Positions 1-31,223 of a DNA stretch of 36,166 nucleotides are shown piece by piece. Source of the stretch: a virus; the IMG/VR virus record IMGVR_UViG_3300014839_001399, positions 1 through 36,166 of that record. One strand, 5' to 3'. Every line of letters begins with the position of its first letter. Position 1 is the first letter of the stretch. Both the position numbers and the translations under genes were made by a program. A model generated the notes under the pieces. It did not search any database. It had not been told where the DNA came from and worked only from the letters and a program-made list of their open reading frames with translations.

Positions 1-2886
1 TCATTTGCACATTGAAAACAAAATAAACATTAGGAAAGAACTTAAATATTGACGCTTTAACGAATCTTCATTATTTTCAGTTTCGAGTTTAGCGTCTTGT
101 GCGAGCATTCCTTCAAGCTCTTTTTCTTTCCCAATAATTAAACTTATTATTTTAGTTTTATCATCAACTGAGATCATGCTGTCAAACGCGGCCAAATGAT
201 TTCTGAAATAGATATATTGGTTAACTATGGTGGTCTTCCTATGCCAAAGATCACGATCGGAAAAATTAGTCCCAAAAAAAGTATTCAGCTCATGAAGCAC
301 TTTTGGTTGATTTGACTTGTTTATAAGCTCAAGATTAGGATAGTGACTTCGAAGATACTTGATGCTTTCTACAGATTCATTAATAGCTTCGTCAGATGAA
401 TCTACCATTGAATAAAGGCCGAAAACGAATTCTACAAAATTGATCGACCCTGTTTTCAATAAGATCTTTAGCGATGCGCGATAAGGAAATAAAATTCTTT
501 TCCCATCTTCATCATTAATTACGGAGAAATAACGCAACATCTGACGCCTGAACAAAGTCTCGAAATCTACTTTTTTATTAAAAAACTGCTCGCCGATTGG
601 TGATAATTTAAATTTGCCCCCAGTTGTTTTGGTGATCAATCCCAGCCGTTCGGTGTGCGACACATTATTATGATTAACCTGAATTTTATCTATCGTTACT
701 TCTTCGCCAATATTTTTGAATCTTTGGATAGTAGGAATTACCAAACTGTCCCTATAGGACTCTATCGAATAATCACCAAGAGTCTTAAAGATCCGTTTAA
801 ATTCGCTTTTTCGTTCTGTCTTTCCATATTTAATGGTCTTATATCCAATCCTAGTTGGCTCGCCATTAACTTCCGCTATTCGCAAATATAAATTTTCTTC
901 GAAAGCTTTCACATCAAATTCCGTAGGTAAACTAAGCACAATCGGAGAATCTGTATCAGTAGTAAATTTCTTTGTTTTTCCTTTTATGGCGCTTAAATTT
1001 ATTCGGTCTATCCACTGTTCAAGTCGCTGATCTTGATCACGTAAAGACTGAATTAAATTATGCACCATCTCGAAATCAACTTGGTTAATAACTTCTTTAG
1101 GATCATCAACGTCGGGCAATAAAATTGGCACAATGAAGTAAGCAATTTTATCATGCCTATCTCTTGGCTTTCTTAAAGCCCTGCCGCACGCCTGAACAAT
1201 ATCGATTAGTGAGTTCTTCGGATTGACGAAATAAATGCTGTCAATAATGGGGACATCAACCCCTTCAGTTAAACATCGAGCATTCGAAATAACCCCATAT
1301 TTATGCGACTTAAATAAATCAAGCCGTTCCTTCCTATCACCCGCGCTCATTGAACCGTTAAGATGATCCAAATAGATATCAGCTTCGTCCAATTCCGGCC
1401 ATAATTTATGAACGGCTACTTTAAAATTTAAATCCGATGCGCTTACTCCATTTATAAAAGCCTGCGCATTCTTAACCGTAGAATGAAATGTAATACATTT
1501 CTTTATTGATAATTCTTTCATCGATTTTATCAACATTACTTGCCGGAAAATGTTCTGAGCGTAGGTAAGATATTCTTCCGAGCCTTTTTCTACATCAACT
1601 AATAACTTATTCGAATTAATCCAGTTATAAATTTCCTTGCTCTTTACGCCCGCAACAATAATTCTATAGTCCGATATGACTTTGCTTTGAATCGCATCCC
1701 CAAATGAAAATCGATCAAACACAGGACCGTACAACCTTGGATCGTCCATAGAGAAAACAACCCTATTCATCTCTTTAGCTTTCTTCATTATCCATGGCCG
1801 CACAAGACGCTCTGTAGCTGTCATAAAAAGACGCTTCTTACTTGGAATATTATGATCATCCAAGGCTAGCGCAAACAGGCCTGATTCACTTGTTCCGGCA
1901 GTCCTATGCGCCTCGTCAAATATGGATAAATCAAAACTAAATTCAGATAACTTATTAAGCCCCTTGGATAAGACATCCAAAGACTGGTATGTCGAAAAGA
2001 CGACGAATTTGCCAGATTTTTTTTGACTCAGATTTCTGCAAATTTCATCTGGGGAAGTTGTAACCGGAACATTCAAATCAGAAATTGAGATGTCACCATC
2101 GTCTACATCCGCTGATACAGTTTTATCACTGCATACGCACAAATACCCAAAAGGAATATGTGCTTGCTCAGCCCACGCCTCTAGCGTTTGCTTAATTAGA
2201 GCCAAACTCGGAGCAATAAAAAGAACGGTTTGAGTCTTTAATTGTTCGGTTATCCACAATGCCGTTAATGTTTTTCCAGTACCGCAAGCCGCAATTAGTT
2301 TGCCCCGGTTGCTTTTTGTAAAACCGTTAACTGTATTAACAATCATTCGTTTTTGATACTCATCTGGACTATAGAATACCTTTGTTCGTTTCTTTTCATT
2401 TGCTAACTGATAAAGCTCTTCAAAGAATTCTTTCCCTAAAACATCAAACTCATCCACCAATATGCTTAAATGTTTCTCATGTTTAGCGCAAAGACGCGAA
2501 AGCTCATAGCAATTAGCAATCGTATAATGATAATCGGTGCGTCTTGCTTCGGCCCAAAACTTGCTTAATTCTTCATACGAAGGCTTTTCTCTATTAGTTC
2601 TAAACTTTGCCTGATACGCCGCAACTTTTCCATCTTGAAGAATAATTAACCCATCAACCCCACAGTCAGTCTTTTCAAGCTGATATTTTTTCTTAAGCTC
2701 GGTCGGAATATTTTCCGCCATATAATGACACTGGATTTGATAGAGATTTTTCTTTATTCCTAAATAGCAAAAAACGAATTGCTCAAATACATCTCCCCGC
2801 TCTTTCGTTGTGGGAAGTTGTTCAATCTGCTTCTCCAATTCACGCCAACTACTGATTTTATTTTTTAGTAATTGATGTAATTTCAT
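1..2886 (-). CDS. Mrr-like nuclease / SF2 helicase restriction subunit
   Basis: Likely the cleaving and translocating subunit of the restriction operon at 1-6259. Visible motifs: an N-terminal PD-(D/E)xK-type nuclease core (GVDG at residues 76-79, QAK at 92-94), Walker A AACGTGKT (199-206), DEAH (324-327), motif III TAT (356-358) and helicase motif VI QACGRALRK (565-573). Residues 600-961 form a C-terminal region without a motif I recognise. The nuclease-then-helicase order matches the front half of type ISP enzymes such as LlaGI, but here the methyltransferases are separate genes. It overlaps the upstream methyltransferase by ATGA and is last in the operon. The stop codon is at the window edge, so the gene is complete. 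The restriction role is inferred from domains and neighbours. Confidence 0.85.
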   Translation of the reverse strand: MKLHQLLKNKISSWRELEKQIEQLPTTKERGDVFEQFVFCYLGIKKNLYQIQCHYMAENIPTELKKKYQLEKTDCGVDGLIILQDGKVAAYQAKFRTNREKPSYEELSKFWAEARRTDYHYTIANCYELSRLCAKHEKHLSILVDEFDVLGKEFFEELYQLANEKKRTKVFYSPDEYQKRMIVNTVNGFTKSNRGKLIAACGTGKTLTALWITEQLKTQTVLFIAPSLALIKQTLEAWAEQAHIPFGYLCVCSDKTVSADVDDGDISISDLNVPVTTSPDEICRNLSQKKSGKFVVFSTYQSLDVLSKGLNKLSEFSFDLSIFDEAHRTAGTSESGLFALALDDHNIPSKKRLFMTATERLVRPWIMKKAKEMNRVVFSMDDPRLYGPVFDRFSFGDAIQSKVISDYRIIVAGVKSKEIYNWINSNKLLVDVEKGSEEYLTYAQNIFRQVMLIKSMKELSIKKCITFHSTVKNAQAFINGVSASDLNFKVAVHKLWPELDEADIYLDHLNGSMSAGDRKERLDLFKSHKYGVISNARCLTEGVDVPIIDSIYFVNPKNSLIDIVQACGRALRKPRDRHDKIAYFIVPILLPDVDDPKEVINQVDFEMVHNLIQSLRDQDQRLEQWIDRINLSAIKGKTKKFTTDTDSPIVLSLPTEFDVKAFEENLYLRIAEVNGEPTRIGYKTIKYGKTERKSEFKRIFKTLGDYSIESYRDSLVIPTIQRFKNIGEEVTIDKIQVNHNNVSHTERLGLITKTTGGKFKLSPIGEQFFNKKVDFETLFRRQMLRYFSVINDEDGKRILFPYRASLKILLKTGSINFVEFVFGLYSMVDSSDEAINESVESIKYLRSHYPNLELINKSNQPKVLHELNTFFGTNFSDRDLWHRKTTIVNQYIYFRNHLAAFDSMISVDDKTKIISLIIGKEKELEGMLAQDAKLETENNEDSLKRQYLSSFLMFILFSMCK

Positions 2887-4208
2887 ATTTTCTCCAGAAC
2901 AACAATGCTTTCTCTCATAAGAGTTCCATAACGACCATTTAAGTCCTTCATTTGCTGAGATGACGCCCTCATTTTACGCGCGTGAATTATATCCACGTTC
3001 TTAAAACCAATTTGCTTGCCTATATCCGCAAATAATAAATCTGTTGGAACAAGAATGCCCCGATACCCTGAATTCGCGACAACAATAAAACATTTAGAAC
3101 CCTTCACCATACTGGCGTATAATTTTTCGAATATCTGAGTCATATCATCAAAATATCCACGTATCATATCTGGGATATTTTTATTCCACACATTAAAGCA
3201 AGACACCGTATCTGCAATTAAATCAACCTTAGGATTCTTGTACTTAACAGCGTGATTGAACGTAGCATTTACATGAGATCGGACAGCAAGGTCCCGGTAT
3301 TGCTTAAAGTCTCCGTATGCTTGCACAAAATCACCCATCCATAGTTCCATCTTATATACCTCGCAATAATCAAAACAATTAGCATACGGCGGAGAAAATA
3401 TTACGATCCCTATCTTTTTATCTCTTATTTCCTTAAAATTATTATTTAGCGAACCATCAATAATCAGAGCGTTTTGGCTATAGTTTGATGAAGAAAGATC
3501 GCTTAGCATCATAGCCGCCTTCTTAAGGAAGAGCCCAGATACATCATTTATAATCTTTTTATTCTTTGCGATTTTTATTCCGTTTCCATCCTTGAGTCTG
3601 TTAGAACACTCCTCCACAATAGACAAATAAGCCAGCTTAAAAAAATTGCTTACTTTTTTATTGGATATATCCTCGCAAAACCCCTTAACGCTCATCAACG
3701 AGTCAAATGTTTTATCAGTAAATGATTTGACTAGTAATGGCGAATCGGGAATAGCCTTGCTTCTTCGTGGTACGAAATTCTTAATATAGCGACGGATTTC
3801 TGCAATCTCTGAATCGCTAAAATGCGAAGTTTTTACTGTGGCCGCAAACGTTGCTACCGGATTAATATCAAACCCTATACTTTTATAACCTAAACTCTGT
3901 GCTACCACATTCGTGGTTCCAACACCTGAAAATGGGTCCAGAACATAATATTTTTTCGAAGGCTTTTCTCGTGAAATTAATTCTTTGACCAGACTTTCTG
4001 AATACCCTTGCTTATAAATAAACCAACTATGTTTCGGAATTTCTTTATTTTGTTTAAAATTGACAAGCTCCGAGAAATACGCATCTTCAGTAACTTTATA
4101 CTTCCTGCTAAGATCATCAATTAATTGAACATATTTTGGAGCTATCAGCTTGTGTAGCTTGCCATTCTTAATAATGTTTTCTGCACTCTTACGAGGGGTA
4201 TTACGCAT
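2883..4208 (-). CDS. DNA amino-methyltransferase, SPPY type (probable N4-cytosine)
   Basis: A 441-aa SAM-dependent DNA methyltransferase. Motif I (SAM binding) reads DPFSGVGTT at residues 91-99, followed by GFDINP. Catalytic motif IV is SPPY at 272-275, a form typical of N4-cytosine methyltransferases, so m4C is the likely product; the target site cannot be read from sequence. Motif I precedes motif IV with a long insert between them that may carry target recognition. Its start overlaps the end of the upstream 621-aa methyltransferase by 8 nt and its end overlaps the nuclease-helicase by 4 nt, so the three are probably translated together. It most likely protects sites cut by the 1-2886 product. 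Confidence 0.88.
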   Translation of the reverse strand: MRNTPRKSAENIIKNGKLHKLIAPKYVQLIDDLSRKYKVTEDAYFSELVNFKQNKEIPKHSWFIYKQGYSESLVKELISREKPSKKYYVLDPFSGVGTTNVVAQSLGYKSIGFDINPVATFAATVKTSHFSDSEIAEIRRYIKNFVPRRSKAIPDSPLLVKSFTDKTFDSLMSVKGFCEDISNKKVSNFFKLAYLSIVEECSNRLKDGNGIKIAKNKKIINDVSGLFLKKAAMMLSDLSSSNYSQNALIIDGSLNNNFKEIRDKKIGIVIFSPPYANCFDYCEVYKMELWMGDFVQAYGDFKQYRDLAVRSHVNATFNHAVKYKNPKVDLIADTVSCFNVWNKNIPDMIRGYFDDMTQIFEKLYASMVKGSKCFIVVANSGYRGILVPTDLLFADIGKQIGFKNVDIIHARKMRASSQQMKDLNGRYGTLMRESIVVLEKI

Positions 4209-6066
4209 AAATTTCCTTCAGGTAATTTTTATTAAAGTGAGAGTAAATATTCTGCCTGTCGCTTGTCATCCCGCCGCCCTTAACAAAAGCTTCGATCTTT
4301 GGAATAACAGTTAAGAACATTTCGTTAATCACCTCATTGCGGTCATGTTCTGTGCTCTTGAATTTCATAAAAAAGGCCTGAAACAGGCGGTCAATATCTT
4401 TGATAAAATCGTCTTCTGATATTTGTTTAGCAAAACAATGAGTTGTCTCTTCTTTCTTAAATGCGTAAATAAAATCACCGTAAGGCGATCCCTCATATTT
4501 TGTATGAGCGGTTTGCTTATAATTATCAACGCCATCCTGAAAATAAAGGCCATTCTCTTCGAGAACGAAACCCGCTCTAAATATAGAAAGCAACAATGCC
4601 AACCAAGCCCCCATATCCTTGTTGTTAAAGGTCAGAACCATGTACCCATCTGGTTTTAATGCCAGATAGGATTTAGAAAAAACTCTATATAAATTATCTT
4701 CATAATCTTTCATATTTTTTGCGCCACGAAAATTCTTCTTCCTATTACAAACAGCTTCACGCAAGAAATTAGGCGCTACATTCCCATAAAGGTCTTTATT
4801 CCAAACATACCAAAAATGAGACAGTTCAAGATATTGGACATTACTTCCATAGGGTGGATCGGTGATAATCGCATCAACGGAATTCTCGGGAATAGGATAA
4901 TCTTCAATTGATAAGTTTTTTAACAACAAGTTGCCTTTTCCATCCGAAAGCGCCTTAAATGAATCGGCAAACTTGACGTCATAATCTTCTTGCTGATTAA
5001 ATGATATCGCACTCCTTACCCTATTAAATGCCTTGTCCATTGATGACAGGACATTAACCTCGCAAAATTGTGATGGAACCCAATAAGCATGTTTTGCCCA
5101 TGTAGTTGGCTTACCAGATTGCCAGTCTTCATTAGTAAATGCCATTATGTTCGTATCTCTCAACGAACTACTAAAAACCAGCCTGAGAGCATCGTATATT
5201 TTCTTATCTGCCTTCATACTGTTTATAAAATGAAGAACTAATGTGTTTAGTAATAAATTTCTCTCAGTGAAAAAATCCTGAAAAGTCTCTATCCCTTTTT
5301 GAATCAATAGGTCCTCATGCTGTCTGTCCCAGTTAACGGGTATTAAATCTTTTTCTATTTTTACTTTTTTCTTTTTGAGTTCCTTTTTCAAGAATTTGAT
5401 ATGCCCCTTAAGCTGTTTGGAAAGCTCAGGAGAGTTTTCAAACAGTATTTTTTCTTGTGCTCGCGATGATCCCATGACAGAAAATAAATATTCATAACCA
5501 TCCCGTTTACAGTCTTTCGGCTGAAGGAATCCCCCCTTCTCCCTGCATGATTCACACTTGGGATTGGAACAATAATACCTCCCATTAGCCATTCGATTAT
5601 TGTTGGATAATAAAACTTTTGTCCCACATCGGTCACAATAAACGTTGAATGCTAATTCATTCCATTCAACCTCTGATTTTTCGTCAAAGAGAACATTTGT
5701 TCTTGCCTTGATGTTAACTCGATTATAATCCCCATATAAATATTGTAGATATTCACGAACCTGAGAGAATGCCTCATCGAGATTTAAAAGAGAAATTTCT
5801 TTTTGAACCATATTCTTAACAATAAATATGGATAAAGGATTAATGTCGAAGCCGATTACTTTTCGACCGGCCCTTATCCCCTCGTAAGCCGTCACTCCGC
5901 CGCCGCAAAACGGATCGAGGACTATTCCATTTTGACAACTGAAGACTTCAACGAGTTGTTTAAATACATTCCAAGGTCTTCGTGCAAAATATCTGTGGAT
6001 TTTATAAGGCGGTGTATGCGCTTCAGCTACAACGGGTTCGTACTTTGGGATAAACGTAGTTGTCAT
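4201..6066 (-). CDS. DNA methyltransferase with zinc-finger insert, DPPY type
   Basis: A 621-aa DNA methyltransferase. Near the N-terminus is the conserved HRYFARRPW stretch (residues 24-32), then motif I DPFCGGG at 51-57 with GFDINP behind it. The catalytic motif DPPYGSN is at 403-409, a form used by N6-adenine and some N4-cytosine enzymes. Between them is a cysteine cluster (C144, C147, C166, C171, C174) that probably binds zinc and may belong to a recognition domain. The start has a good AAGGAG site that overlaps the stop of the preceding ribbon-helix-helix gene. Two methyltransferases beside one nuclease-helicase suggest modification of an asymmetric site on both strands or dual-base protection; that is inference. 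Confidence 0.87.
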   Translation of the reverse strand: MTTTFIPKYEPVVAEAHTPPYKIHRYFARRPWNVFKQLVEVFSCQNGIVLDPFCGGGVTAYEGIRAGRKVIGFDINPLSIFIVKNMVQKEISLLNLDEAFSQVREYLQYLYGDYNRVNIKARTNVLFDEKSEVEWNELAFNVYCDRCGTKVLLSNNNRMANGRYYCSNPKCESCREKGGFLQPKDCKRDGYEYLFSVMGSSRAQEKILFENSPELSKQLKGHIKFLKKELKKKKVKIEKDLIPVNWDRQHEDLLIQKGIETFQDFFTERNLLLNTLVLHFINSMKADKKIYDALRLVFSSSLRDTNIMAFTNEDWQSGKPTTWAKHAYWVPSQFCEVNVLSSMDKAFNRVRSAISFNQQEDYDVKFADSFKALSDGKGNLLLKNLSIEDYPIPENSVDAIITDPPYGSNVQYLELSHFWYVWNKDLYGNVAPNFLREAVCNRKKNFRGAKNMKDYEDNLYRVFSKSYLALKPDGYMVLTFNNKDMGAWLALLLSIFRAGFVLEENGLYFQDGVDNYKQTAHTKYEGSPYGDFIYAFKKEETTHCFAKQISEDDFIKDIDRLFQAFFMKFKSTEHDRNEVINEMFLTVIPKIEAFVKGGGMTSDRQNIYSHFNKNYLKEIYA

Positions 6067-7930: not shown

Positions 7931-8494
7931 TTATGCTCCGCCTCTGACCGGACGAACATAATTTGTGTAGTAATAATCTCTCCCCCCGTTTGTTCTGTAG
8001 CCATCGTAAAAATACACTAGCCAAACGTAATAATCGTATGACTCGCACAGCGTTGACGACCAATACCCGCTTGACTGCGCGTTTGGAAAATACATTGTGT
8101 CGATGACATTCCCGTACGTCCCGAAATTAATCAGTGATTCCAACTCTCGAATATTGGGAAGCCGCCAATCAGAATACCCTGCGTAATCAAGGTTCTCGCA
8201 GTTGTTAAGTGCGTCGTACCAGTTCATCATGCTTGGCATCCCCGGTGATCCCCAAGGCCCGTAAAGCTCTGACGGATCCTTAACCCACATAAGACCAGTG
8301 AGATTGTCCGTAACAGTTCCGTCACCGTTATCGTTGTACCTCGACCCAGAGGGCCCAATCCCTTTCTGATACATTGCGTCATCGCCCCACGACCGCGAAT
8401 ACGTCTGGCCGGTTTTCAATACACCTGCATTAAATACTTGCGGCGGCGGGGTTATATTTTCGATTTTGTACGTTCTTGCTTGCTGAATATGCAT
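7931..8494 (-). CDS. Lcl/DUF1566-domain protein (C-type-lectin-like fold)
   Basis: A 187-aa protein whose residues 50-187 match the Lcl C-terminal/DUF1566 family: DNGDGTVTDNLTGLMWVKD, NWYDALN, YSDWRLPNIRELESLI, a YWSST motif and the terminal YVRPVRGG. The family has a lectin-like fold and occurs in adhesins and phage fibres, so surface or receptor binding is likely. There is no signal peptide, as expected for a virion protein. The last 45 residues are very rich in Tyr, Asp, Asn, Ser and Gly, typical of the hypervariable face of this fold and of some diversity-generating retroelement targets; no reverse transcriptase or template repeat is visible here. Start chosen by AGGAGG five bases upstream. 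Confidence 0.82.
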   Translation of the reverse strand: MHIQQARTYKIENITPPPQVFNAGVLKTGQTYSRSWGDDAMYQKGIGPSGSRYNDNGDGTVTDNLTGLMWVKDPSELYGPWGSPGMPSMMNWYDALNNCENLDYAGYSDWRLPNIRELESLINFGTYGNVIDTMYFPNAQSSGYWSSTLCESYDYYVWLVYFYDGYRTNGGRDYYYTNYVRPVRGGA

Positions 8495-8503
8495 GTCATC
8501 CTC

Positions 8504-8797
8504 CTAACTTTCATAAGTCACGGTAAGTTTTCCGGCGGTCGTACTCTGTTTGATCGCCCGAAATTTCCGTATAAGGTAAATACTCTTTAACTCCAGAAAG
8601 TCCGAATCCAACAACGGATGCCCTGTGATGTCCGTTGGATCCACTCCGTCAATACGGTAACGCATCGCGCCGCCCTCCGCCGTAATGAACGCCTTCGCGG
8701 CCGCATCCCCAACAGCAGGGTCATAGATCGCCGCGTTTAAACTCGCCACCCCCACATCAACACTGACCTCCTCAAAACCAATAGAATCTCCAGTCAT
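8504..8797 (-). CDS. Small phage structural-type protein
   Basis: A 97-aa beta-rich protein (segments ITAEGGAMRYRIDGVDPT, LKSIYLIRKFRAIK, AGKLTVTYES). It looks like the small beta-sandwich proteins found among phage fibre genes, but no named family is certain. The ATG at 8797 has AAAGGAG upstream, placed inside the end of the radical SAM gene. It ends in a TAG that is part of the ribosome site of the next gene; that TAG is in frame with the next ATG (three codons between). Confidence 0.6.
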   Translation of the reverse strand: MTGDSIGFEEVSVDVGVASLNAAIYDPAVGDAAAKAFITAEGGAMRYRIDGVDPTDITGHPLLDSDFLELKSIYLIRKFRAIKQSTTAGKLTVTYES

Positions 8798-8802
8798 GGC
8801 TC

Positions 8803-9960
8803 TTACTCCTTTCTAAGTGCTGTTAATATTTCCTCGTTTTGTTTGGCCACGTCCACCAAGACCTGACCTACCTTATAAAGCATCCGCTCCCTGCGGTCGC
8901 TCAACTCCACCGGCAAATACCTCGTCGCCTCCTCATGCTCAAGCCTGCACACCTTGCAATATTTCTCGATCGGCTGAACAAGATCACCGTTCACCTTGTG
9001 ATGCGTGATCACGCAACTATGGCAAGACGAAGCCGCCGGACAATTCTTCCAGCAACCGGTGTATTCTTTATTGATACTCAAGAACACGCCCCGGATAAAC
9101 GGTCTCTCGTCAAAAATGTTGCCCAACTTAAAGACCCGGGCACTGGCCGCGCGGTGGCACGGATACACATCGCCATCTGACAATATCGCCAGATAGGATT
9201 TTCCCGCTTCGCAAAAGTTTGACTCGGGCGGCACCTCGTCATTTACGATCTTGAGAGGTTTATCAATGAACGCGATCTGAAGCGGGATCCCCTGCCTTTG
9301 GCAATACCTGCGGTAGTGATACAGTTGATTGAGCTGATAGGCGTATTTTTGAATCGCCTCCTCCGTCCAATCCGCTTCCATAACCGCATGATGCATGATC
9401 TTCTGCACCCCGACATCCTGATGCAGAAACTGCACGTTGATCGACAACCGGCCGACCGTCTTGGGCGTATACGTCATACGCACACCCAAATCCGGAAACA
9501 CCACCAGCATCTTCCTTATGTTCTCAACAACCTTTGCCCAGTTGCCCTTACGATGTTCCATCGTCGTTGCCTCATCGCCGTCGCAACTAACCTGCACCGC
9601 AAAATGAAGCTCTTTGAATTGACGGAAGATATCCTCATCGAAGAACGTGCCGTTTGTGGACACGCTAAAGACCGCCATGTGCCTGCCGTCGATATCCGGC
9701 CAGAGTTCCCGGGCATACCGAGCCAAATCCAACACTGTCTGCGGAAACAACAGCGGCTCACCGCCAAAGAATGTGATCTGAAGGCCGTCCGGACTGATCT
9801 CCTTCATACGATCCAAAATCTTTTTGCCCTGCTCAACCGAAAGCACGCCGTCGCTTTTCGGATGAAAGCAATACTCACAATCCATGTTGCATCGCTCTGT
9901 CACGAACAAGTCGATGCTCCTAATTTCATTTTTATTCTTACCGCCGACTACACTCTGCAT
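8803..9960 (-). CDS. Radical SAM/SPASM maturase (third of three)
   Basis: A 385-aa radical SAM enzyme. The [4Fe-4S] SAM cluster motif is CNMDCEYC (C24, C28, C31) and the SAM-contacting GGEP motif is at 66-69. The C-terminal SPASM region has cysteines at 250, 268, 303, 307, 313, 316, 335 and 338 that can hold auxiliary Fe-S clusters. Enzymes of this architecture usually modify ribosomal peptides or proteins (thioether, carbon-carbon or epimer formation, or sulfatase-type oxidation). The order of motifs resembles anaerobic sulfatase-maturase relatives, but no sulfatase is present. Its start lies inside the end of the second radical SAM gene with site AAAGGAAGATT-ATG. The substrate is unknown. 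Confidence 0.9.
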   Translation of the reverse strand: MQSVVGGKNKNEIRSIDLFVTERCNMDCEYCFHPKSDGVLSVEQGKKILDRMKEISPDGLQITFFGGEPLLFPQTVLDLARYARELWPDIDGRHMAVFSVSTNGTFFDEDIFRQFKELHFAVQVSCDGDEATTMEHRKGNWAKVVENIRKMLVVFPDLGVRMTYTPKTVGRLSINVQFLHQDVGVQKIMHHAVMEADWTEEAIQKYAYQLNQLYHYRRYCQRQGIPLQIAFIDKPLKIVNDEVPPESNFCEAGKSYLAILSDGDVYPCHRAASARVFKLGNIFDERPFIRGVFLSINKEYTGCWKNCPAASSCHSCVITHHKVNGDLVQPIEKYCKVCRLEHEEATRYLPVELSDRRERMLYKVGQVLVDVAKQNEEILTALRKE

Positions 9961-11027
9961 AATCTTCCTTTCTCGATCTCAATGTACCGTTTTGTTATTT
10001 TGAAAAGCACCCGGCACATCTTGCAAAACGACGGCTCAGGCTTAAACATATCTCCCATCCATTCAAGGTTCAGCCCAAGGCACTTGTTGCGCGGACATAA
10101 ACCGTAAAGCTCACACCCTTGGCAATGCTGACCCAAATACTTCTCCCGATCCGCATCGATCGCCCAAGCCAAGTCCAGCCGTGAATAATCAATGCCCGAA
10201 TCAATATCACCGAGCTTGTTATGCTGGCAAATGTACATGTTGTCGCACTGCCAGATACCGCCAGCGGTATCAATAAACAGCCTCTCCAGACCTGACCGGC
10301 AATAATGGAAAGGCCGCACCTGCGCCTTTAAGCCAAACTCCTTGAAATACAGATTGCTGTGCAAGGCCGGGTTCATAGATCGGTACAACACCTCATCGTG
10401 GCGGTATTTTTCAAGAAGCCGAAAATACTCATCCGCGAATCTTTCCAAATCTTCCTCTTTATGCTCAACCCGGGTGGCCAAGTCGATCGTGATATTGCGC
10501 GTCACGTTCTCAACCAAATAATCAAAATCCTCAATAAACCGGTCATACCGCGTGACCATAAAGTTCACCGTATTGGCCGGGTTATCCCGAACCAGCCGGA
10601 ACGCCCATGGCTCTGCCGCGACCTTCTCACGCAAACCGCCGTATTTCTCATAGCCATTTCCCAGCGACCACGTGATCCCCATGTTTCTGTGCGCCATAAA
10701 CCAGTTGAACATCTCCTCTGTCACCGGCTTGCCGCTGGTGTTCGTGTGAAACAAAAACTGCGGATACTTCTCAACGACCGCCCTGATAACCTTCATATTG
10801 AGAAGCGGCTCACCTCCCCAAAAGAAGATTGAGAACTTCGGATCCAGCTCAAGCTGAGAAAACACAAAATCGAGGATCCGAAACGCCATCTCCTCGCTCA
10901 TGAATGCGGGGCCCAGTGCCTCGCGCTTATTGCGCTCAAACAGCCCGCGCCGATAACAGAAACTGCACCCCGCGTTGCATGCGTGTGTGAGGTACAGATA
11001 AATAGATTTGTAGACCGATGTTTTCAT
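9948..11027 (-). CDS. Radical SAM/SPASM maturase (second of three)
   Basis: A 359-aa radical SAM enzyme with cluster motif CNAGCSFC (C17, C21, C24) very close to the N-terminus and GGEP at 71-74. SPASM-type cysteines occur at 243, 261, 267, 302, 305, 311, 316, 335 and 338, including CQGCELYGLCPRNKC. It shares architecture but little obvious sequence with its two neighbours, so the three are not recent duplicates. The start overlaps the upstream gene by ATGA and the end overlaps the next start by 13 nt, so all three are translationally coupled. Peptide or protein modification is the family-level expectation; the target is unknown. Confidence 0.9.
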   Translation of the reverse strand: MKTSVYKSIYLYLTHACNAGCSFCYRRGLFERNKREALGPAFMSEEMAFRILDFVFSQLELDPKFSIFFWGGEPLLNMKVIRAVVEKYPQFLFHTNTSGKPVTEEMFNWFMAHRNMGITWSLGNGYEKYGGLREKVAAEPWAFRLVRDNPANTVNFMVTRYDRFIEDFDYLVENVTRNITIDLATRVEHKEEDLERFADEYFRLLEKYRHDEVLYRSMNPALHSNLYFKEFGLKAQVRPFHYCRSGLERLFIDTAGGIWQCDNMYICQHNKLGDIDSGIDYSRLDLAWAIDADREKYLGQHCQGCELYGLCPRNKCLGLNLEWMGDMFKPEPSFCKMCRVLFKITKRYIEIEKGRLCRV

Positions 11028-12217
11028 TTAATCCCCAGTTCGATCGCACGGCGTGCGATGTAATCAAACACGAAATACTCCACTTTGTTCGCCCAGCAGT
11101 GATTGGCCGCCGGTTTCAACGGATTACCCGTCTTGATATAGTTCTCCGCAAGACACATCGCCCGCGGGCAAAGTCTTATATCTTTAGCCTCACAAACCTC
11201 ACAGTCCCGGCAATCCTCGTAAAGTCCTTCGATCCACTCGCCCATCTTCTTAAAGAACAAAGCCGTTTCATTAAAACCGTTAAACACGTCGCCAATTTTG
11301 AACTCCGGAAAGTTGGCAAAGAAGTCGCATGGATAAATCTCGCCCTTGTTATTGATCGCCAAGTACATATACCCACACCCGCAGAACGTAGGCGGCACAT
11401 CCTTGATCGGCAACCCTTTGAGTTTGCGGTAAATGTTATGGTGAAAAACTGAATCCCACTGACACCTGCCAAACTTAGGCGCACCTTCAAAGTAAACGTA
11501 ATCGGCGACGCGTTTGAATAAAGCCTTGAACGCCTCGTTCTTATCCCTGATACGATCCCAATGTCGCGCGGTCGAGATCCGCACAACCGGAATCGGATAC
11601 TCAAAAAGATATTTGATATCCTCAAAGATGCCCGGCTCATCCGGATCATCGATAACAAAATGCACATCACCACCGTTATGCCGAACCACATCAAGCGCGG
11701 GCTTAGCCGCCTCCAAATATCCTTTGCCGAACTTCTGCTTCAACGCGCCGATACTGACACTCACTCGAAGCGTCCCTTTGCGTGACTTGACCCACTCCCG
11801 CGCTTCGGCGTTTTCTACCAACACAAGGCCGTTCGTTGTGACCACATAAGGGAACATCGGATAGGTGTCGACCAAATACCGCACCATATCGAAATTTACA
11901 AACGGCTCGCCGCCAAAGATGCTGAATTTAACCTTAGACTCATCGAACGTCCGTACCACAAAGCCCATGGCGCAATCGATAATCTCCCGCGTGATCCCGC
12001 TATCCTTCTGTCGAAATTCCCGAGGCTGATAGCAATAAGGACAATGAAGATTGCAGTCCTGCGTCATCAGAAAATAAATCGTCGTGTAATCCGGCTTATT
12101 TGCGGTCACGGCATCGACGTCAAACTTGCCGTTTTCCTTGTAGCCTTTGATCACCTCTCGGCACAATGACGGCAAGTCGCCTGTTGCCTTGCTTTCTTCT
12201 AAAGTAAAAACGCTCAT
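11024..12217 (-). CDS. Radical SAM/SPASM maturase (first of three)
   Basis: A 397-aa radical SAM enzyme. About 45 residues precede the cluster motif CNLHCPYC (C55, C59, C62); this leading part (LEESKATGDLPSLCREVI) might contact a substrate. GGEP is at 102-105. SPASM-type cysteines are at 279, 281, 297, 336, 339, 342, 350, 355 and 374. The ATG at 12217 is preferred to a GTG six bases earlier because it overlaps the stop of the 126-aa gene as ATGA and follows GGAG. It is the first maturase after the candidate substrates at 12214-13323. Confidence 0.9.
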   Translation of the reverse strand: MSVFTLEESKATGDLPSLCREVIKGYKENGKFDVDAVTANKPDYTTIYFLMTQDCNLHCPYCYQPREFRQKDSGITREIIDCAMGFVVRTFDESKVKFSIFGGEPFVNFDMVRYLVDTYPMFPYVVTTNGLVLVENAEAREWVKSRKGTLRVSVSIGALKQKFGKGYLEAAKPALDVVRHNGGDVHFVIDDPDEPGIFEDIKYLFEYPIPVVRISTARHWDRIRDKNEAFKALFKRVADYVYFEGAPKFGRCQWDSVFHHNIYRKLKGLPIKDVPPTFCGCGYMYLAINNKGEIYPCDFFANFPEFKIGDVFNGFNETALFFKKMGEWIEGLYEDCRDCEVCEAKDIRLCPRAMCLAENYIKTGNPLKPAANHCWANKVEYFVFDYIARRAIELGIK

Positions 12218-12594
12218 TTCCACTCCAAGTGATAAAGATTCGTGTCCACTTCAACCGCCTCGAATCCAAGACGGTCTTTGATATTTTTCTTCTGCTCATC
12301 AGTCAAAGCCATAATGCCCGCCAGATACAGTTCGCCTTTCTTTTCGCCTGATATAAAGAAACTGAAGTTCGCAATCTTGCCGCGCTCATCAATAATCCCC
12401 AAATCTTGAATGGTCAGCTTTAACGCGTTGCTGAAATCCTCGACCTTATCAAACCGCCCCTTCGTGAACCCATTAACCCGCTGATCATCAAGATTCATCC
12501 GTACCCAATAAATGAGTTCGGTCACTGGATTGTCCTTCGTATCTTTTGCGACCTTCAATGTCTTTGGCTTGCTTGTCTCAAAACTCGGAAACAT
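12214..12594 (-). CDS. Unknown 126-aa protein coupled to the radical SAM genes
   Basis: No family recognised. A mixed alpha/beta soluble protein with a Lys-rich N-terminus (ETSKPKTLKVAKDTKDNP), a central beta strand pair (ANFSFFISGEKKGELYLAG, residues 75-93) and a C-terminal ALTDEQKKNIKDRLGFEAV helix-like part. There are no cysteines, so it is not an Fe-S or thioether substrate by that route. It overlaps the first radical SAM gene by ATGA, which suggests a partner role such as substrate delivery or recognition; that is inference only. It could equally be a small virion protein. Confidence 0.6.
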   Translation of the reverse strand: MFPSFETSKPKTLKVAKDTKDNPVTELIYWVRMNLDDQRVNGFTKGRFDKVEDFSNALKLTIQDLGIIDERGKIANFSFFISGEKKGELYLAGIMALTDEQKKNIKDRLGFEAVEVDTNLYHLEWK

Positions 12595-12600
12595 ATACCC

Positions 12601-13323
12601 TCACCATGTGTACGGATTGCATTTGCAATTCCAATCAGAATGCACCGCGCCCCAGTTATACCCGGGCGGCGTATAGTTACACTGCGGCGACCACGGCACA
12701 TAGCCATCCCACGGCGTCGCGTTTATTGGCTCACCTGAAGCCGCTTTATACGGATGCGTCGTTCCCCCGGGCAGGTTGTAGCTGGCGCAAATTCGATGAT
12801 CCACCATGCTGTGATTGCATTCGCTGTATTTATGATCATCACAAGCAACCCCAGCATGCGAACACGTCTGGTAGTAATACCCGCAATCCGCGCAATACTG
12901 GCACTGCTCTGCCTCACAAATACAGCCGGTCATTAACGCCTGCAGTTTCGAGCGCAATTCGGAAACGTGATCATTCCTCGCCTTAATAGTGTTCGCCGTA
13001 AGCGTCGGGTCCGTAAAATCCATGCACCCTGATGAATCCTGCACGCAGTACCCCGACTCACCTCTACCGGTCTTAACGTTCTGCAACTCAACCCTCAGCT
13101 CCGCGACATGATCGTTGCGAATTTTAATAACATCCGCCGTAAGCGTTACGTCCGTAAACGTCGCTGTCGACAAACCCCTGCGAGTGAACTCCAGATTGAC
13201 CTTTATCCGCAGTTCCTCCACATGGTCGTTTCTCGCTTTAACCGTATTCGCGGTCAAAGTCGGATCCGTCCACGTCGGCGTATTTGCTGGACACTGTTTT
13301 GGCGGTAATCTATGCTCTGGCAT
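12601..13323 (-). CDS. Three-repeat protein with Cys/Tyr/Trp-rich C-terminal tail; candidate maturase substrate
   Basis: A 240-aa protein in two parts. Residues 18-42, 56-80 and 103-127 are three copies of a 25-residue repeat (core TLTANTIKARNDHVxELRxKL) related to the IKAxHxxELR repeats of surface proteins. Residues 134-240 hold 12 cysteines (134, 136, 141, 144, 147, 154, 161, 169, 179, 215, 233, 235) and many aromatics, ending NCKCNPYTW. There is no signal peptide. The Cys-rich part could bind metal, form disulfides, or be a substrate for the radical SAM enzymes downstream, since thioether and aromatic cross-links are family products. It lies two bases after the fibre-like gene, so a virion part is also plausible. 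Confidence 0.7.
   Translation of the reverse strand: MPEHRLPPKQCPANTPTWTDPTLTANTVKARNDHVEELRIKVNLEFTRRGLSTATFTDVTLTADVIKIRNDHVAELRVELQNVKTGRGESGYCVQDSSGCMDFTDPTLTANTIKARNDHVSELRSKLQALMTGCICEAEQCQYCADCGYYYQTCSHAGVACDDHKYSECNHSMVDHRICASYNLPGGTTHPYKAASGEPINATPWDGYVPWSPQCNYTPPGYNWGAVHSDWNCKCNPYTW
12943..13272 (-). repeat. Three 25-codon tandem-type repeats inside the Cys-rich protein gene
   Basis: Repeat units correspond to residues 18-42, 56-80 and 103-127 of the 12601-13323 product. All share DxTLTAxxxKxRNDHVxELR. Spacers of 13 and 22 residues differ in sequence. The nucleotide copies have diverged at many third positions, so these are old repeats kept for protein structure. Confidence 0.8.
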
Positions 13324-13325
13324 TT

Positions 13326-14366
13326 TTACTCCGCATACGTCGCATTCGGGAACGCGAACTCTAAACCTGTTTCATCAGCCTTCACCCTGACAGACTTCCC
13401 CGCCTGTCCTGTGTAGTTTGACGGACAATCCGTCAAGGCCACGAAAGACGACATCCCCAGTAAAAACAAAGGCCGAACATCCTTATATATGTAGGCGTCG
13501 CTGGGATTAGCATCCTTGCTCTCGTAATCCACGACCTTCGTCATTGTCGGTTTGCAATACACGAGGCATATCGGAAACTTGCCTGATGGAAACGCTGGCT
13601 CGGCCGGATTAGATGCCTCCGCGCCAGTCGTCCACTCCAATACCCCTGCCGAGTTGATCGTCAATAAATCGATCCTCGGATTAGTCCCCGGGGCTGTAAT
13701 AAGCGATGATGCCCCGCCCGCGTAAGTTAACCTTGTTGATCCGATATAAATATTCTGATAAAACCCGCCAACTAAAGCCGAAGCCACCGCCACATTCATT
13801 CCGCACACTGCCGTGATGGTATCGAATATAAAAGTCTGGGAAGCTGGCAGTTGATAGAACCCAAAATCGGTAATATTCGACAACACTGCCGCTGTGCCGT
13901 TATTCCCATCAGGCGTCGCTAAGGTCAAAGTATCCTTCTTCCACGTTCCGACTGTTCCGTGAGAAGTTAAATTCCAATAGCTCACATGGCCAAGGTTATC
14001 TTCAATAAAGAACCTGAAAGTCTGACTTGCGCCTGAACACCTCTCCCACAATGTAATTTGTTTGAACGCGGACAAATTAACGCCCTTAATAAGCGTAACC
14101 TGCCGGTTAGGCGTAGCGTCGATTACGCACTGCAGGGCGTAATTGCCTTCCTGCTTCGTAGTCGAATGCGTAACCGTCACGCCAGTCCCCGACCATTTGG
14201 CTTGCGCCAATGCGTCCGTCGAATACTCAAAATCATCTAAAATCATCGATGCCCGAGGCCGCAAGGCAAACAAATCACCCTGAAACAAAGCCCTCAAAAC
14301 ATTCCGGACATTCTCCAGCGACATAGAACCTGTCGGCTGATTCGGATCGAAAATATGTCTTTCCAT
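13326..14366 (-). CDS. Tail fibre/receptor-binding-like protein
   Basis: A 346-aa protein. Residues 40-190 look like a jelly-roll carbohydrate-binding module (MILDDFEYSTDALAQAKW, then alternating beta strands and DTLTLATPDGN). A fibre-like middle rich in Gly, Thr and Ser follows (residues 195-255). The C-terminus (GKSVRVKADETGLEF) has the form common at the ends of phage tail fibre and collar proteins. Its position after the tail tip gene supports a receptor-binding role. It may bind host surface sugar, but the ligand is unknown. Confidence 0.68.
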   Translation of the reverse strand: MERHIFDPNQPTGSMSLENVRNVLRALFQGDLFALRPRASMILDDFEYSTDALAQAKWSGTGVTVTHSTTKQEGNYALQCVIDATPNRQVTLIKGVNLSAFKQITLWERCSGASQTFRFFIEDNLGHVSYWNLTSHGTVGTWKKDTLTLATPDGNNGTAAVLSNITDFGFYQLPASQTFIFDTITAVCGMNVAVASALVGGFYQNIYIGSTRLTYAGGASSLITAPGTNPRIDLLTINSAGVLEWTTGAEASNPAEPAFPSGKFPICLVYCKPTMTKVVDYESKDANPSDAYIYKDVRPLFLLGMSSFVALTDCPSNYTGQAGKSVRVKADETGLEFAFPNATYAE

Positions 14367-14507: not shown

Positions 14508-17500
14508 TCAATATCCTTTCACGTCGATATCCACCTCGGCGGTGCCAATGGCCGCGCCGTTGCGGTCATAAACTTTGATATCGCACTGTGTCGTTGTTTT
14601 ATTGGAAACAATCGGCATACCGATAATGCCGTTGACGATCGTCACCGTAATCCTCGGCGGGTAATTAAAACCGGTGCCGAATAAAATCGTCTTGCCCTGC
14701 ACTGGAATTGCCACATCCCTAAACCACGAAAGTTTTGTCACCGGCGCATTGATGTAAAGCCGACAACTATAAAAGTAAAAATGATGACTCGGGTCGGTTG
14801 TCGCAATCACAAACTTGAACTTGATATACCGACCTGTATATGTCGTAAAAGCATCAATGGCTGAAAATGCCGTATAACTTATCCCATCTGACGAAACACT
14901 GATCTGCACCTCAAGCGATCCGCCCGAAACGTTCTTGAAATCAGCGTCGATAATCACCTTGAACTCAAACACCGTAAGCAAGTCAATCGGTGAGATCATT
15001 TCGAAAAAGCCGGTCGTCTTAGTCTGGCCATTTAAATTCAATCCGCCGCCTGCCTCTTGCGCCTCCCAAGTCAACCCCTGCGCCTGTCGATCCTCCCATG
15101 ACATATCCGTCTTTAAACACAACGCTGGCCGGACATACCCCAAATCGAAATCATTCGTGTAAACCAGCTCGAAATTGCTTAATCGATACTGCAAATCCTG
15201 ACTCCACAAATCGAAGTCGTTGATGAAATTCATTTCCGGCGGCGGTGTAATAACTATCGAATCCATCCCGGGTGATGGGCTTTCATTGCCAGAAGTATCA
15301 ACCGCCTTAATCATGAACGTCACGTTGCCGATCTCGCCTACCGGATACATAAACTCCGTTGTATCCGTCCTCTCTGCGATAACCTGACCGGCATTCCACT
15401 CCGAACCTTTTCTGATCACGTACCGGGCAAGATCAGCATCCGCGATTGCATCCCAGCTGAACCTTAAAAAATTACCCTCCTGCGAAACCTCGAATCCAGT
15501 AACATCCGATGGTGGGTTGAGTTTTCCCAAGACAGTCAAATCAGAAGATTCCAATCCGTCCGACACAATGCCGTTGATCGATACCGTTCTGACCTTAATC
15601 CGATACGTCTGTTCATCCTCAACGCCAAAGATCGTGAAATTTGTGTCTGTTGTCGTGCCGACAACTTTGTAATCCTCCGTGCCTTTCTTGAGTTCAATTT
15701 GATAATGGCTCAGAAAAATCTTTGAATCATCTGTCGGTGCATCAAAGCCAACCAGAATATCTGAACCAACCGTTCCGTCACGGTGCAGGTAATAAAGACT
15801 TTCTGAAACCTGAATATTTGAAACCTCTCCCACCGGCGCATATGGATTGGGCGGCGTGCCGTAGTCAAATGTTTGAATCGTCGCGCCGTATCGGTCGTTG
15901 TAAATTGTGGGGTTATATTCCTGTGCGGTGATCTTATAAACATCACGCTCATCCTCCTCGATACGCTGAATAACAAACTGCTTATTCGTCCAGCCCATAA
16001 GCGAATGCGTGACCTCAATAACGTCTCCAATCTCCTGACCGATCGCATTCAAGGACGTGGTGAATTCAATTGATAACGGACAAAGTTTTAGCTCGTAAAA
16101 ATACTGATTGCTCAAACGCGAAGCCTGCGTTTTACGGTTTATTGACGGAATGGTAAGCGTCTGCTCAACAAGCCCGCGCTCGTCCTGATCGACCTTGTCC
16201 TCTGACCCCCACGCAAGGATCCGAGCGTCATCCTGCGTCGGATCGAAATACTCAATGCCGAACCGATTGATCTTCTGATCCAACCCTTTCTGTACGATCT
16301 TCAAATCCGTGATGTCATCCTCATCGAACGCGGCAACAACACTCTGAGTCTTAGCCACCAGCAACTTGAGCTTTGAACCGCTTCTGATGAGCGCACCCGC
16401 GAAACCGACCAATATCTCGGTGAGGTTATCCGATGCCGCACGTTTCTGATCGATTACGTAAGAAACGGCGTACCGCGCCTCCTGCCCGCCCTGTCCGTCC
16501 GAAACAAACTCTCCGCAATAGTCATAAACCTCGCCAAAGGGCATATCATCAATATCACCTGCCAAATATCCGCATCCCCCTACTTGGGGCTTGAGAAGCA
16601 GATAATCACGAATACAGGCGGCTGGATTATCCGAAAACGATCTCGCCGTTGACCAAACCGAACCATTCCACGTCTGCACCTTGCGTCCTCTGCAAACACA
16701 TGTAATGTTCGGACGCCCGCCTTTCAATTTGTCAGACGTTCCTAAATGAACATGAAGCATGGCGACATTGCGGTACTGCACGCCATCCAGCTCAAGACCA
16801 GTAACGGTCTCCACGTTCTGCGTTGATGTGCCTGTAAAGGCGTGATACGAACATCCCGGGAAGTTCGCTATATCCTCTCCGTTGAGCCGCACATCAGTGA
16901 TGCTGTCGATCTCTCCCTCGCAAAGGACGATGAGCATATCAACCTGCTCGCCGCCCATGACCGGGTTCTGAAAAACAATGTTGCCGCTAAGACGCGCCTG
17001 ACCGTACAAGACCGGCACCGGAAACTGATTGCTTGAAGTAGTCTGAAGCTCGCCGAATTGATACCGAGGCGAAGAAGAAGATCCTCCGCTCTTTGAAGTC
17101 TGCCGCGCCTGAATGGCCAGCCCGATTGAATACCCGATCATGGCCGTACCAATCAGACAACCGATCGTGGTAAGCGATAATGCAATAAGCCCACCGGCAA
17201 TGAACGATGCGGCCGCATAGTCTGCAATGACCAAAGCCACCGCGATCACAGCCGGGGGCCCAGCTGGCGGGATATAAATCTTCCCGTCCTTTTCCCTGAT
17301 CCCGAAAAGGAAGTATTTTTCCCAAGAAGGTGTGAGCCGCGAAATACGAGATTTGCCGTCCTTCTTAGCGTGAAGCATCCGTCCGTATCCCAAATAAAGA
17401 CCAACGTGCAGTTCCTCTCCGATTTTGAAAACCAAAACATCCTCGGCCTGAAGCTCAGGAATACTGACAATCGTGTTGACCTTGGTAATCTGCTGAATAA

Positions 17501-17678
17501 TTTCGTCCTGATTATCCGGCGTGAAATCACTGATCTTCGGCGCGCATGCCTCCACGCCCTTCTCCCTGAAATACAATTCCATCAACCCAACACAGTCCGT
17601 CCCCTCATGGCTTCGCCCATCCTGAAGCCATTTAATACCGACCAACTTGTTAAGGGTTTCAGTATCAAGTTTCTTCAT
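14508..17678 (-). CDS. Fused NlpC/P60 peptidase - tail tip (J-like) protein with FN3 domains
   Basis: A 1056-aa tail tip protein. Residues 1-130 form an NlpC/P60 peptidase domain with catalytic Cys29 (GTDCVGLMELY) and His91 (HVGLYLGYGRMLHA), which would cut cell-wall peptide links during DNA entry. Residues about 138-190 are strongly hydrophobic. Residues about 205-620 resemble the tail tip/hub region shared by lambda J and gene-transfer-agent gp15-type proteins. Two fibronectin-III-like domains follow (about 630-725 and 730-820), then a beta-rich C-terminus likely to meet the receptor. In many phages the peptidase and tip are separate genes, so the fusion is notable. It starts in ATGA overlap with the DUF2163 gene. 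Confidence 0.88.
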   Translation of the reverse strand: MKKLDTETLNKLVGIKWLQDGRSHEGTDCVGLMELYFREKGVEACAPKISDFTPDNQDEIIQQITKVNTIVSIPELQAEDVLVFKIGEELHVGLYLGYGRMLHAKKDGKSRISRLTPSWEKYFLFGIREKDGKIYIPPAGPPAVIAVALVIADYAAASFIAGGLIALSLTTIGCLIGTAMIGYSIGLAIQARQTSKSGGSSSSPRYQFGELQTTSSNQFPVPVLYGQARLSGNIVFQNPVMGGEQVDMLIVLCEGEIDSITDVRLNGEDIANFPGCSYHAFTGTSTQNVETVTGLELDGVQYRNVAMLHVHLGTSDKLKGGRPNITCVCRGRKVQTWNGSVWSTARSFSDNPAACIRDYLLLKPQVGGCGYLAGDIDDMPFGEVYDYCGEFVSDGQGGQEARYAVSYVIDQKRAASDNLTEILVGFAGALIRSGSKLKLLVAKTQSVVAAFDEDDITDLKIVQKGLDQKINRFGIEYFDPTQDDARILAWGSEDKVDQDERGLVEQTLTIPSINRKTQASRLSNQYFYELKLCPLSIEFTTSLNAIGQEIGDVIEVTHSLMGWTNKQFVIQRIEEDERDVYKITAQEYNPTIYNDRYGATIQTFDYGTPPNPYAPVGEVSNIQVSESLYYLHRDGTVGSDILVGFDAPTDDSKIFLSHYQIELKKGTEDYKVVGTTTDTNFTIFGVEDEQTYRIKVRTVSINGIVSDGLESSDLTVLGKLNPPSDVTGFEVSQEGNFLRFSWDAIADADLARYVIRKGSEWNAGQVIAERTDTTEFMYPVGEIGNVTFMIKAVDTSGNESPSPGMDSIVITPPPEMNFINDFDLWSQDLQYRLSNFELVYTNDFDLGYVRPALCLKTDMSWEDRQAQGLTWEAQEAGGGLNLNGQTKTTGFFEMISPIDLLTVFEFKVIIDADFKNVSGGSLEVQISVSSDGISYTAFSAIDAFTTYTGRYIKFKFVIATTDPSHHFYFYSCRLYINAPVTKLSWFRDVAIPVQGKTILFGTGFNYPPRITVTIVNGIIGMPIVSNKTTTQCDIKVYDRNGAAIGTAEVDIDVKGY

Positions 17679-30643: not shown

Positions 30644-31223
30644 CTTTCACTCCTGAAAAGTCATCAACGATTGCACTTATGACTTCGTAAAGTTCCGATT
30701 CAATCTCACGTGGCTCGCGCATCGCAAGCTTAGGTGCCATAATTCGCGGCAAAGACAAAAACTCACGCTTGATCATCATGACCCGGGCAACCCGCCCCTT
30801 TTCGACTTCCTCCCTTGAAACAACTTCTCCAGTCGCTTTTTTCAATTCCAGCTCAAGCATCGTCGCCTTATACTCAAGAATCTTGTCCTCCCAATACTCC
30901 TTGCGATCCTTGAACTCATTTAAGCCATCCTCATTCCGCGTTACATGCCATGCCTTAATCTCATCAAGGTCATAAAACCCGTCTTTGGTCGTTGGCATTC
31001 CGTCCTGCTTCCAACGCTGGACGGTGCGGTACGACACATCCATCACCTTAGCAACTTCTTCTATGGTTTTGACAACCGAGGGCGCGAGCGGCTCTGCCTC
31101 GAACTGCTCAATCTCAATAATTTCAGATTTGCTCAATGGCTTACCGCTTTGCATCTTTTCGATTAAATGCAAATGCCGCTTCTTCCGCGCTATATCAGCC
31201 AAGTTTTGTTTCTGATCAGCCAT
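30534..31223 (-). CDS. Terminase small subunit (Nu1-like)
   Basis: A 229-aa protein. Residues 53-92 (TIEEVAKVMDVSYRTVQRWK, then FYDLDEIKAWH) form a winged helix-turn-helix like that of lambda Nu1, which recognises the cos region. A long helical middle (EFKDRKEYWEDKILEYKATM) likely drives assembly, and residues 130-200 may contact the large subunit. The C-terminal tail (Gly/Glu/Ser-rich) is the part that overlaps TerL. The gene lies immediately upstream of TerL and is coupled to the methyltransferase gene. Confidence 0.88.
   Translation of the reverse strand: MADQKQNLADIARKKRHLHLIEKMQSGKPLSKSEIIEIEQFEAEPLAPSVVKTIEEVAKVMDVSYRTVQRWKQDGMPTTKDGFYDLDEIKAWHVTRNEDGLNEFKDRKEYWEDKILEYKATMLELELKKATGEVVSREEVEKGRVARVMMIKREFLSLPRIMAPKLAMREPREIESELYEVISAIVDDFSGVKDAVENGKGNIEPAGTAGVDEAASDNGEPVGGSVSNS

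Follow-up and report, generated by a model that had tools for sequence, protein, structure and literature searches.

The viral record IMGVR_UViG_3300014839_001399 (36,166 nt, analysed over its whole length and referred to here as the window) carries three radical S-adenosylmethionine (SAM) enzymes, SAM1 to SAM3, together with a 240 aa protein, p240, whose gene is strictly linked to theirs and belongs to the same module. Comparative sequence evidence makes it likely that p240 is a distal-tail protein matured by these dedicated enzymes in an anaerobic host cell, probably through thioether or other radical cross-links. A phage modification system of several steps, acting on a virion protein among other candidates, had been put forward in the original prediction, which left the target undecided; of the readings considered, action on a virion protein has the best support, and linkage now indicates p240 as that target.

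Genes for terminase, portal, major capsid, tape-measure and tail-tip proteins of lambda type are present in the window record, all on the minus strand. Judged by this gene content, the window phage is a lambda-like siphophage and the radical SAM module lies within its distal tail operon; the domains of the tail-tip protein J1056 mark the locus as distal tail. The operon reads J1056, fib346, p240, p126, SAM3, SAM2, SAM1, p97, Lcl187 (Table 1). The p240 gene is separated from fib346 by 2 nt and from p126 by 6 nt. The p126/SAM3, SAM3/SAM2 and SAM2/SAM1 junctions overlap by 10, 4 (ATGA) and 13 nt, respectively, which bears out the predicted tight joining of the enzymes to a 126 aa protein. The predicted extent of the module stands for the three enzymes and p126 but was one gene short, as p240 had been missed.

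Linkage and conservation of p240 and the three enzymes

Contigs were collected by viral scans with each gene and by a genome scan with p240, and p240 was found in 19 viral and 4 bacterial contigs. In all 21 independent contigs with downstream sequence (17 viral, 4 bacterial) it is followed by SAM3, and SAM2 and SAM1 then follow wherever the contig is long enough. The order p240-(p126)-SAM3-SAM2-SAM1 is kept in every contig with sufficient sequence, and p240 is present in 15 of 15 contigs retrieved with the SAM2 profile. Because of this strict linkage, p240 is the most probable substrate of the enzymes. Misassembly or insertion of a host segment, a concern raised at the outset, is refuted because the same order recurs across 21 independent contigs, one of them from a closed genome. 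Additionally, the gene neighbours listed in other contigs place the homologues in phage and prophage tail regions; hence they are not confined to bacterial loci for ribosomally synthesized and post-translationally modified peptides (RiPPs).

The module also occurs beside tail genes of another type. L065 and L066 carry gp25 and Baseplate_J genes (L066 also a gpV-type gene), the surrounding tail genes differ from those of the window, and p126 is absent from these contractile-tailed versions. Since p240 and the three enzymes are kept while p126 and the surrounding tail genes differ, the four genes form a unit that moves between phage tail types. No protease, transporter or exporter gene is part of the conserved module, and the linked protein, at 240 aa, is not a short RiPP precursor.

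Three repeats of 31 aa, of the type [WF]TDPTLTA..K.RNDHVxELR, are located at residues 18–48, 56–86 and 103–133 of p240. Its C-terminal domain (residues ~129–240, ...CICEAEQCQYCADCGYYYQTCSHAGVACDDHKYSEC...WNCKCNPYTW) is rich in Cys, Trp, Tyr and His. Of 15 cysteines in total, ten C-terminal ones (C134, C136, C141, C144, C147, C161, C169, C179, C233 and C235) are invariant over 16 relatives, and residues 129–182 are the most constrained, with a ratio of nonsynonymous to synonymous substitution rates (dN/dS) of about 0.01–0.02. No obvious signal peptide is apparent in p240.

The prediction of three intact but dissimilar SPASM radical SAM enzymes was confirmed by their open reading frames (ORFs), CxxxCxxC and GGEP motifs, matches to SPASM/TIGR04085 and mutual identities of ~19–29 %. 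Pfam Radical_SAM is matched with E values of 1.2e-17, 1.8e-5 (under the gathering score) and 2.8e-7 by SAM1, SAM2 and SAM3, respectively, Pfam SPASM by SAM1 (1.4e-6) and SAM3 (6e-4, slightly under the gathering score), and TIGR04085 by SAM2 (24.2 bits, cut-off 27) and SAM3 (34.7 bits). The catalytic CxxxCxxC, GGEP and auxiliary-cluster cysteines are invariant in all three (9–10 relatives each, identity down to 36–50 %), and dN/dS is 0.04–0.08 for the enzymes, p240 and J. The enzymes are under purifying selection and their catalytic motifs are intact.

The strongest family-profile E value, 1.8e-52, and the low dN/dS lie well outside chance. Comparison with radical SAM family profiles gave thioether-forming maturases, namely PapB, nif11, SCIFF and QhpD, as the best-scoring families of all three enzymes, each below its family cut-off. 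Against NF047865 (PapB family; curated cut-off 340 bits) SAM1 scores 178.6 and the other two 93.9 and 103.9; TIGR03906 (QhpD; cut-off 453) is among the top matches of SAM2 at 71.5 bits. The nearest solved structure for all three is 5WGG (CteB). A viperin-like defence function (pVip) was rejected, as SPASM is present and the match is partial, covering only the radical SAM core (59.9, 30.5 and 34.5 bits).

One copy of the module (L048, p240 homologue at 9995–10729) comes from an Omnitrophota bacterium, Candidatus Velamenicoccus archaeovorus LiM, whose closed chromosome harbours it inside a complete prophage that carries a 698 aa serine recombinase. The identity of this prophage to the window phage is 72 % for terminase, 80 % for portal, 76 % for capsid and 80 % for methyltransferase. 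Among 384 genomes of the LiM phylum, a near-complete p240 is present in 3 and a close SAM1 in 5. The module is also carried by L050, labelled Ruminococcaceae by its submitters. The host of the window phage would most likely be an Omnitrophota bacterium.

Joint exchange of enzyme sets and cysteine-rich domains

Other phages were drawn in with the SAM1 profile (41 loci). In L106, L108–L113 and L128 the genes on either side, for a J-type protein (1207 aa), a fibre (~190 aa), p97 and Lcl, belong to the same siphophage family, while p240, p126 and SAM1–3 are replaced by a 187–200 aa protein, a SPASM enzyme and a radical SAM protein with a B12-binding domain. The swapped-in protein is rich in (CT)n and ends in CCECECTCTCTCTC...CCSECDCGD or CCECECTCTCTCTCTCTC...CCSECDCGD. 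The enzyme set and the Cys-rich C-terminus are exchanged jointly, and the neighbours are unchanged.

The N-terminal region is shared across this exchange. With a profile of the cysteine-free p240 residues 15–72 as query, the 1,623 ORFs of 32 loci without p240 gave nine matches that pass the inclusion threshold (E from 2e-6 to 1.6e-3; L109, L133, L111, L108, L112, L106, L117, L113 and L110). All nine are Cys-dense ORFs beside radical SAM genes, and two kinds are represented, the (CT)n proteins and, in L117 and L133, the (CNCDFCPC)n proteins. The next match is a Cys-dense protein of L157 (E 0.11). Chained single-sequence searches connect L133 to L157 (3e-5), L157 to L121 (2e-8) and L121 to a pair of large Cys-dense proteins in L118 (1e-10). 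The motif [LM]R..[IV]N.E[LF].RR runs through the group of profile matches. An ORF counts as Cys-dense here if a stretch of 60 residues holds at least 9 Cys; of the 797 non-radical-SAM ORFs in the 41 loci, 34 qualify, nearly all of them adjoining an enzyme. p240 itself has the three sequence features of the class of candidate phage radical SAM substrates defined in this analysis: a helical N-terminus of the WTDP/‘LRxxINxExxRR’ type, a Cys-dense C-terminus and a radical SAM gene within a few kb. As the N-terminal repeats are kept while C-terminal Cys domains and enzyme sets are swapped, the repeats are probably a common docking part.

Pairs of enzyme and Cys-rich protein occur without the shared domain as well. 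The baseplate-type prophages L116 and L120 have a SPASM gene followed by a 563–567 aa protein with a Cys-rich N-terminus, four radical-SAM-type ORFs in L114 surround a protein ending CQTACQTSCQGC..., and L115 has several radical SAM genes along with genes for a 35-Cys and a 31-Cys protein. Cultured Campylobacter phages of the CP220 group, which are T4-like and virulent, encode gp140 (35 Cys, (CNYCTCDC)n) adjoining a tail-fibre-attachment gene, with a SPASM-type radical SAM gene 2.2 kb from gp140; each is present in 15 records. Most of the other phage enzymes collected likewise score best against the PapB/SCIFF/nif11/CXXX-repeat group. INPHARED phages gave nothing close to the enzymes or substrates of the p240 type, only distant enzyme matches, and the N-terminal domains of L133 and L118 had no matches there. 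Several phage lineages (lambda-like, T4-like, Mu/PBSX-like and giant) may have a modular system in which a shared N-terminal docking domain is combined with interchangeable Cys-rich C-termini, each served by a SPASM or B12 radical SAM enzyme set of its own, to give radical-cross-linked tail proteins, a generalization we regard as possible though a little short of probable.

Further loci were noted in these searches. The giant phage L118 (IMG/VR contig, 229,764 bp) encodes three Cys-dense proteins (273, 316 and 364 aa) and two radical SAM genes within 11 kb. The gp140 homologue of Campylobacter phage CP21, CP21_105, is annotated as a ‘putative N-acetylneuraminate pyruvate lyase’, probably a misannotation. 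In Achromobacter phage JWF (L152, 4631–6082) the fibre-like gp028 has NCNCDCNCNCSC directly before a Hint domain of the self-splicing type, and the SPASM gene gp030 lies close by, which suggests a link to protein processing. The human-faecal ‘Bacteriophage sp.’ records L153, L154 and L156, which resemble pieces of bacterial chromosomes, and L155, which is Bacteroidales-like, were not used.

Genes surrounding the module

Table 1. Genes of the distal tail operon, with positions in the window
Gene	Position	Strand	Product	Features
J1056	14508..17678	-	J-like tail-tip/host-specificity protein	NlpC/P60, Phage-tail_3 and fn3 domains
fib346	13326..14366	-	protein of tail-fibre type, immediately upstream of p240	weak tail matches (DUF4815, phrog_11660)
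p240	12601..13323	-	proposed substrate	three WTDP-type repeats and a Cys/Trp/Tyr-rich C-terminus; linked to enzymes
p126	12214..12594	-	126 aa accessory protein, siphophage version	alpha/beta fold outside known families
SAM3	11024..12223	-	SPASM radical SAM enzyme, 399 aa	GTG start; C57xxxC61xxC64, GGEP, auxiliary Cys conserved
SAM2	9948..11027	-	SPASM radical SAM enzyme, 359 aa	C17xxxC21xxC24, GGEP, C243...C261...CxxC(5)C(4)C...C335
SAM1	8803..9960	-	SPASM radical SAM enzyme, PapB-like, 385 aa	C24xxxC28xxC31, GGEP
p97	8504..8797	-	small protein downstream of SAM1	flanks the swappable cassette; conserved in many siphophages
Lcl187	7931..8494	-	Lcl_C (DUF1566, lectin-like) protein	distribution same as p97

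p126 diverges fast, with 57 % identity where its neighbours retain 84–93 %. Its predicted model has a predicted local distance difference test (pLDDT) score of 76.5 and gave weak fold matches only (best Foldseek E 0.095, VIA Z 4.7). No family match suggests that p126 is a RiPP recognition element (RRE), and the fold matches are too weak to point to or away from such a role.

The C-terminus of Lcl187 shows clustered residue differences from an 89 % relative in L034, resembling the target of a diversity-generating retroelement. Action of such an element on Lcl187 was rejected, since no RVT_1 match is found in the window record or in three related records, all four of which may be fragments. The LiM genome has one RVT_1 match, 1.2 Mb distant from the prophage.

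Elsewhere in the window, positions 1–6066 (minus strand) hold a restriction-modification block with a GC content of 36 % versus 49 %, encoding a 961 aa ResIII/Mrr-type helicase-nuclease and two DNA methyltransferase ORFs; the block is probably a recent insertion into the phage. A fusion of ParB_N with an N6/N4 DNA methyltransferase (31216–32514, minus strand) is 80 % identical in the LiM prophage. Disrupted copies of the enzymes are apparent in other contigs. SAM3 of L050 (11105–12333) is broken into two overlapping frames in a locus that lacks p97 and Lcl, through decay or sequencing error. In the Omnitrophota prophage remnants L086 (9903–11025) and L087 (4624–5481) SAM1 begins at residue ~96–103; in L086 the truncated gene borders on a g93 gene in inverted orientation and on a gene for a serine recombinase, an arrangement that deletion or recombination might leave, and in L087 the contig ends at it.

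Proposed maturation of p240 and alternatives

Enzymes of the PapB, SCIFF/CteB, nif11 and QhpD group form thioether bonds from Cys to other residues. As in the window, the PapB ranthipeptide (NF047865), SCIFF/CteB, nif11 and CXXX-repeat maturases have a radical SAM core with SPASM and a Cys-rich target, in the window a candidate one, encoded next door. The window enzymes, however, score far under the cut-offs of that group, the proposed target is a 240 aa protein in a tail operon, three different enzymes would serve one target, and exporter, protease and recognizable RRE are lacking. QhpD is a SPASM enzyme making several thioether cross-links within a functional protein, the gamma subunit of quinohemoprotein amine dehydrogenase, rather than in a secreted peptide; the window differs from it in scoring below the cut-off, in having no Qhp genes, and in its phage setting and three enzymes. 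Given that the nearest families and structure are those of thioether formers, stepwise cross-linking of the C-terminal domain of p240 is proposed.

p240 would be located at the distal tail, associated with the tip or fibre, and the three SPASM enzymes encoded behind it would serve as its dedicated maturases. They would act successively in the anaerobic host cytoplasm, prior to or during tail assembly, on the Cys/Trp/Tyr-rich C-terminal domain, installing cross-links that are most likely of the thioether (Cys S to carbon) or a related radical type. The product may be a compact, rigid and redox-insensitive tip domain, independent of disulfides, that touches the host envelope and could contact the receptor. 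The helical WTDP/‘LRxxINxExxRR’ repeats could dock p240 to the tail, to the enzymes or to both, with p126 as a putative siphophage-specific helper. The HK97 capsid offers a likeness, in that a virion protein is strengthened covalently as the particle assembles, by Lys-Asn cross-links that form autocatalytically with no enzyme and no radical chemistry; the proposed system differs from HK97 both in location and in its use of enzymes.

Several observations weigh against this reading. The AlphaFold model of p240 is unusable (pLDDT 38). SAM1–3 fall below the cut-off of every curated maturase family compared, which leaves the chemistry a guess, and no leader-binding, PqqD-like RRE domain was recognized among Pfam and NCBIfam matches of p126 and the enzymes. 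The N-termini of CP220-type proteins do not match the p240 profile; thus, the likeness of a SPASM-type enzyme near a 35-Cys protein and a tail-fibre-attachment gene is architectural only. WTDP repeats are also present in Omnitrophota proteins without a radical SAM gene nearby, so that the repeat by itself is no substrate marker and is possibly an attachment or adhesion unit instead of an enzyme-recognition leader. Such proteins, of about 370–1210 aa, were seen in L090, L091 and L092, where they adjoin pseudopilin-like genes.

The kinship of the repeats with proteins encoded beside pseudopilin-like genes, the occurrence of the module in a prophage and the general pairing of radical SAM enzymes with Cys-rich partners, typical of bacterial secreted peptides, would all suit a p240 that is not part of the virion but a product of lysogenic conversion or secretion, that is, a modified surface or secreted protein acting on the host or on competitors. 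This is unlikely, as p240 has no obvious signal peptide and no linked transporter or protease gene, its gene lies inside the tail operon directly past a fibre gene and adjoins tail genes in both siphophages and baseplate-type phages, and similar pairs are found in the virulent T4-like Campylobacter phages. It is quite unlikely, too, that the enzymes modify something else, whether a host molecule or one of fib346, J, Lcl187 and p97, with p240 as a neighbour holding natural disulfides or metal sites. Lcl187 and p97 are indeed nearby and mostly retained; however, both are absent from L050, L051 and L066, which rules them out as obligate substrates, and J and fib346 are replaced in L065 and L066, while p240 is constant. 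Furthermore, the Cys-rich protein changes whenever the enzyme set changes.

That joint exchange, together with the strict co-inheritance of the enzymes with one gene of a structural locus, also makes it highly improbable that the C-terminus of p240 binds metal or Fe-S in unmodified form, with the radical SAM proteins having an unrelated role as auxiliary metabolic genes. CxC and CxxC patterns could bind metal, and 11 radical SAM genes were regarded as metabolic by the CP220 authors (PMC2853527), but the window enzymes are closer to peptide and protein maturases than to metabolic radical SAM families.

Campylobacter group II phages (CP220, CPt10 and IBB_35) have 11–12 radical SAM genes and a 21-bp repeat inside CPT_0180; the enzymes were treated as metabolic and the intragenic repeat separately, without connection between the two (PMC2853527, PMC3322345). 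In pelagimyophages, radical SAM cassettes are found in the host recognition cluster, within a tail-fibre hypervariable region, and no substrate or function is proposed for them in the portions of that paper drawn on here (PMC7029224). The original prediction that no phage system of this layout had been described holds for the open literature searched, with few subscription journals and hardly any preprints, in which no account of virion maturation by phage radical SAM enzymes was found; phage radical SAM genes per se are on record in the three papers cited. The enzymes are known in kind; that literature does not describe the use proposed here, in which they act on a protein of the phage tail region whose Cys-rich modules are interchangeable.

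Phage radical SAM genes have so far been classed as metabolic cargo. Should their products serve to mature tail proteins, phages would build virions by radical chemistry, and many unexplained phage radical SAM genes and cysteine-repeat proteins (CP220 gp140, phrog_26958) would gain a function. Such modules would also supply new cross-linking enzymes for large, genetically modular substrates, and host recognition in hard-to-study anaerobes, the Omnitrophota among them, would become testable. Modular radical cross-linking, if true, would represent virion maturation and receptor-binding diversification of a categorically new kind.

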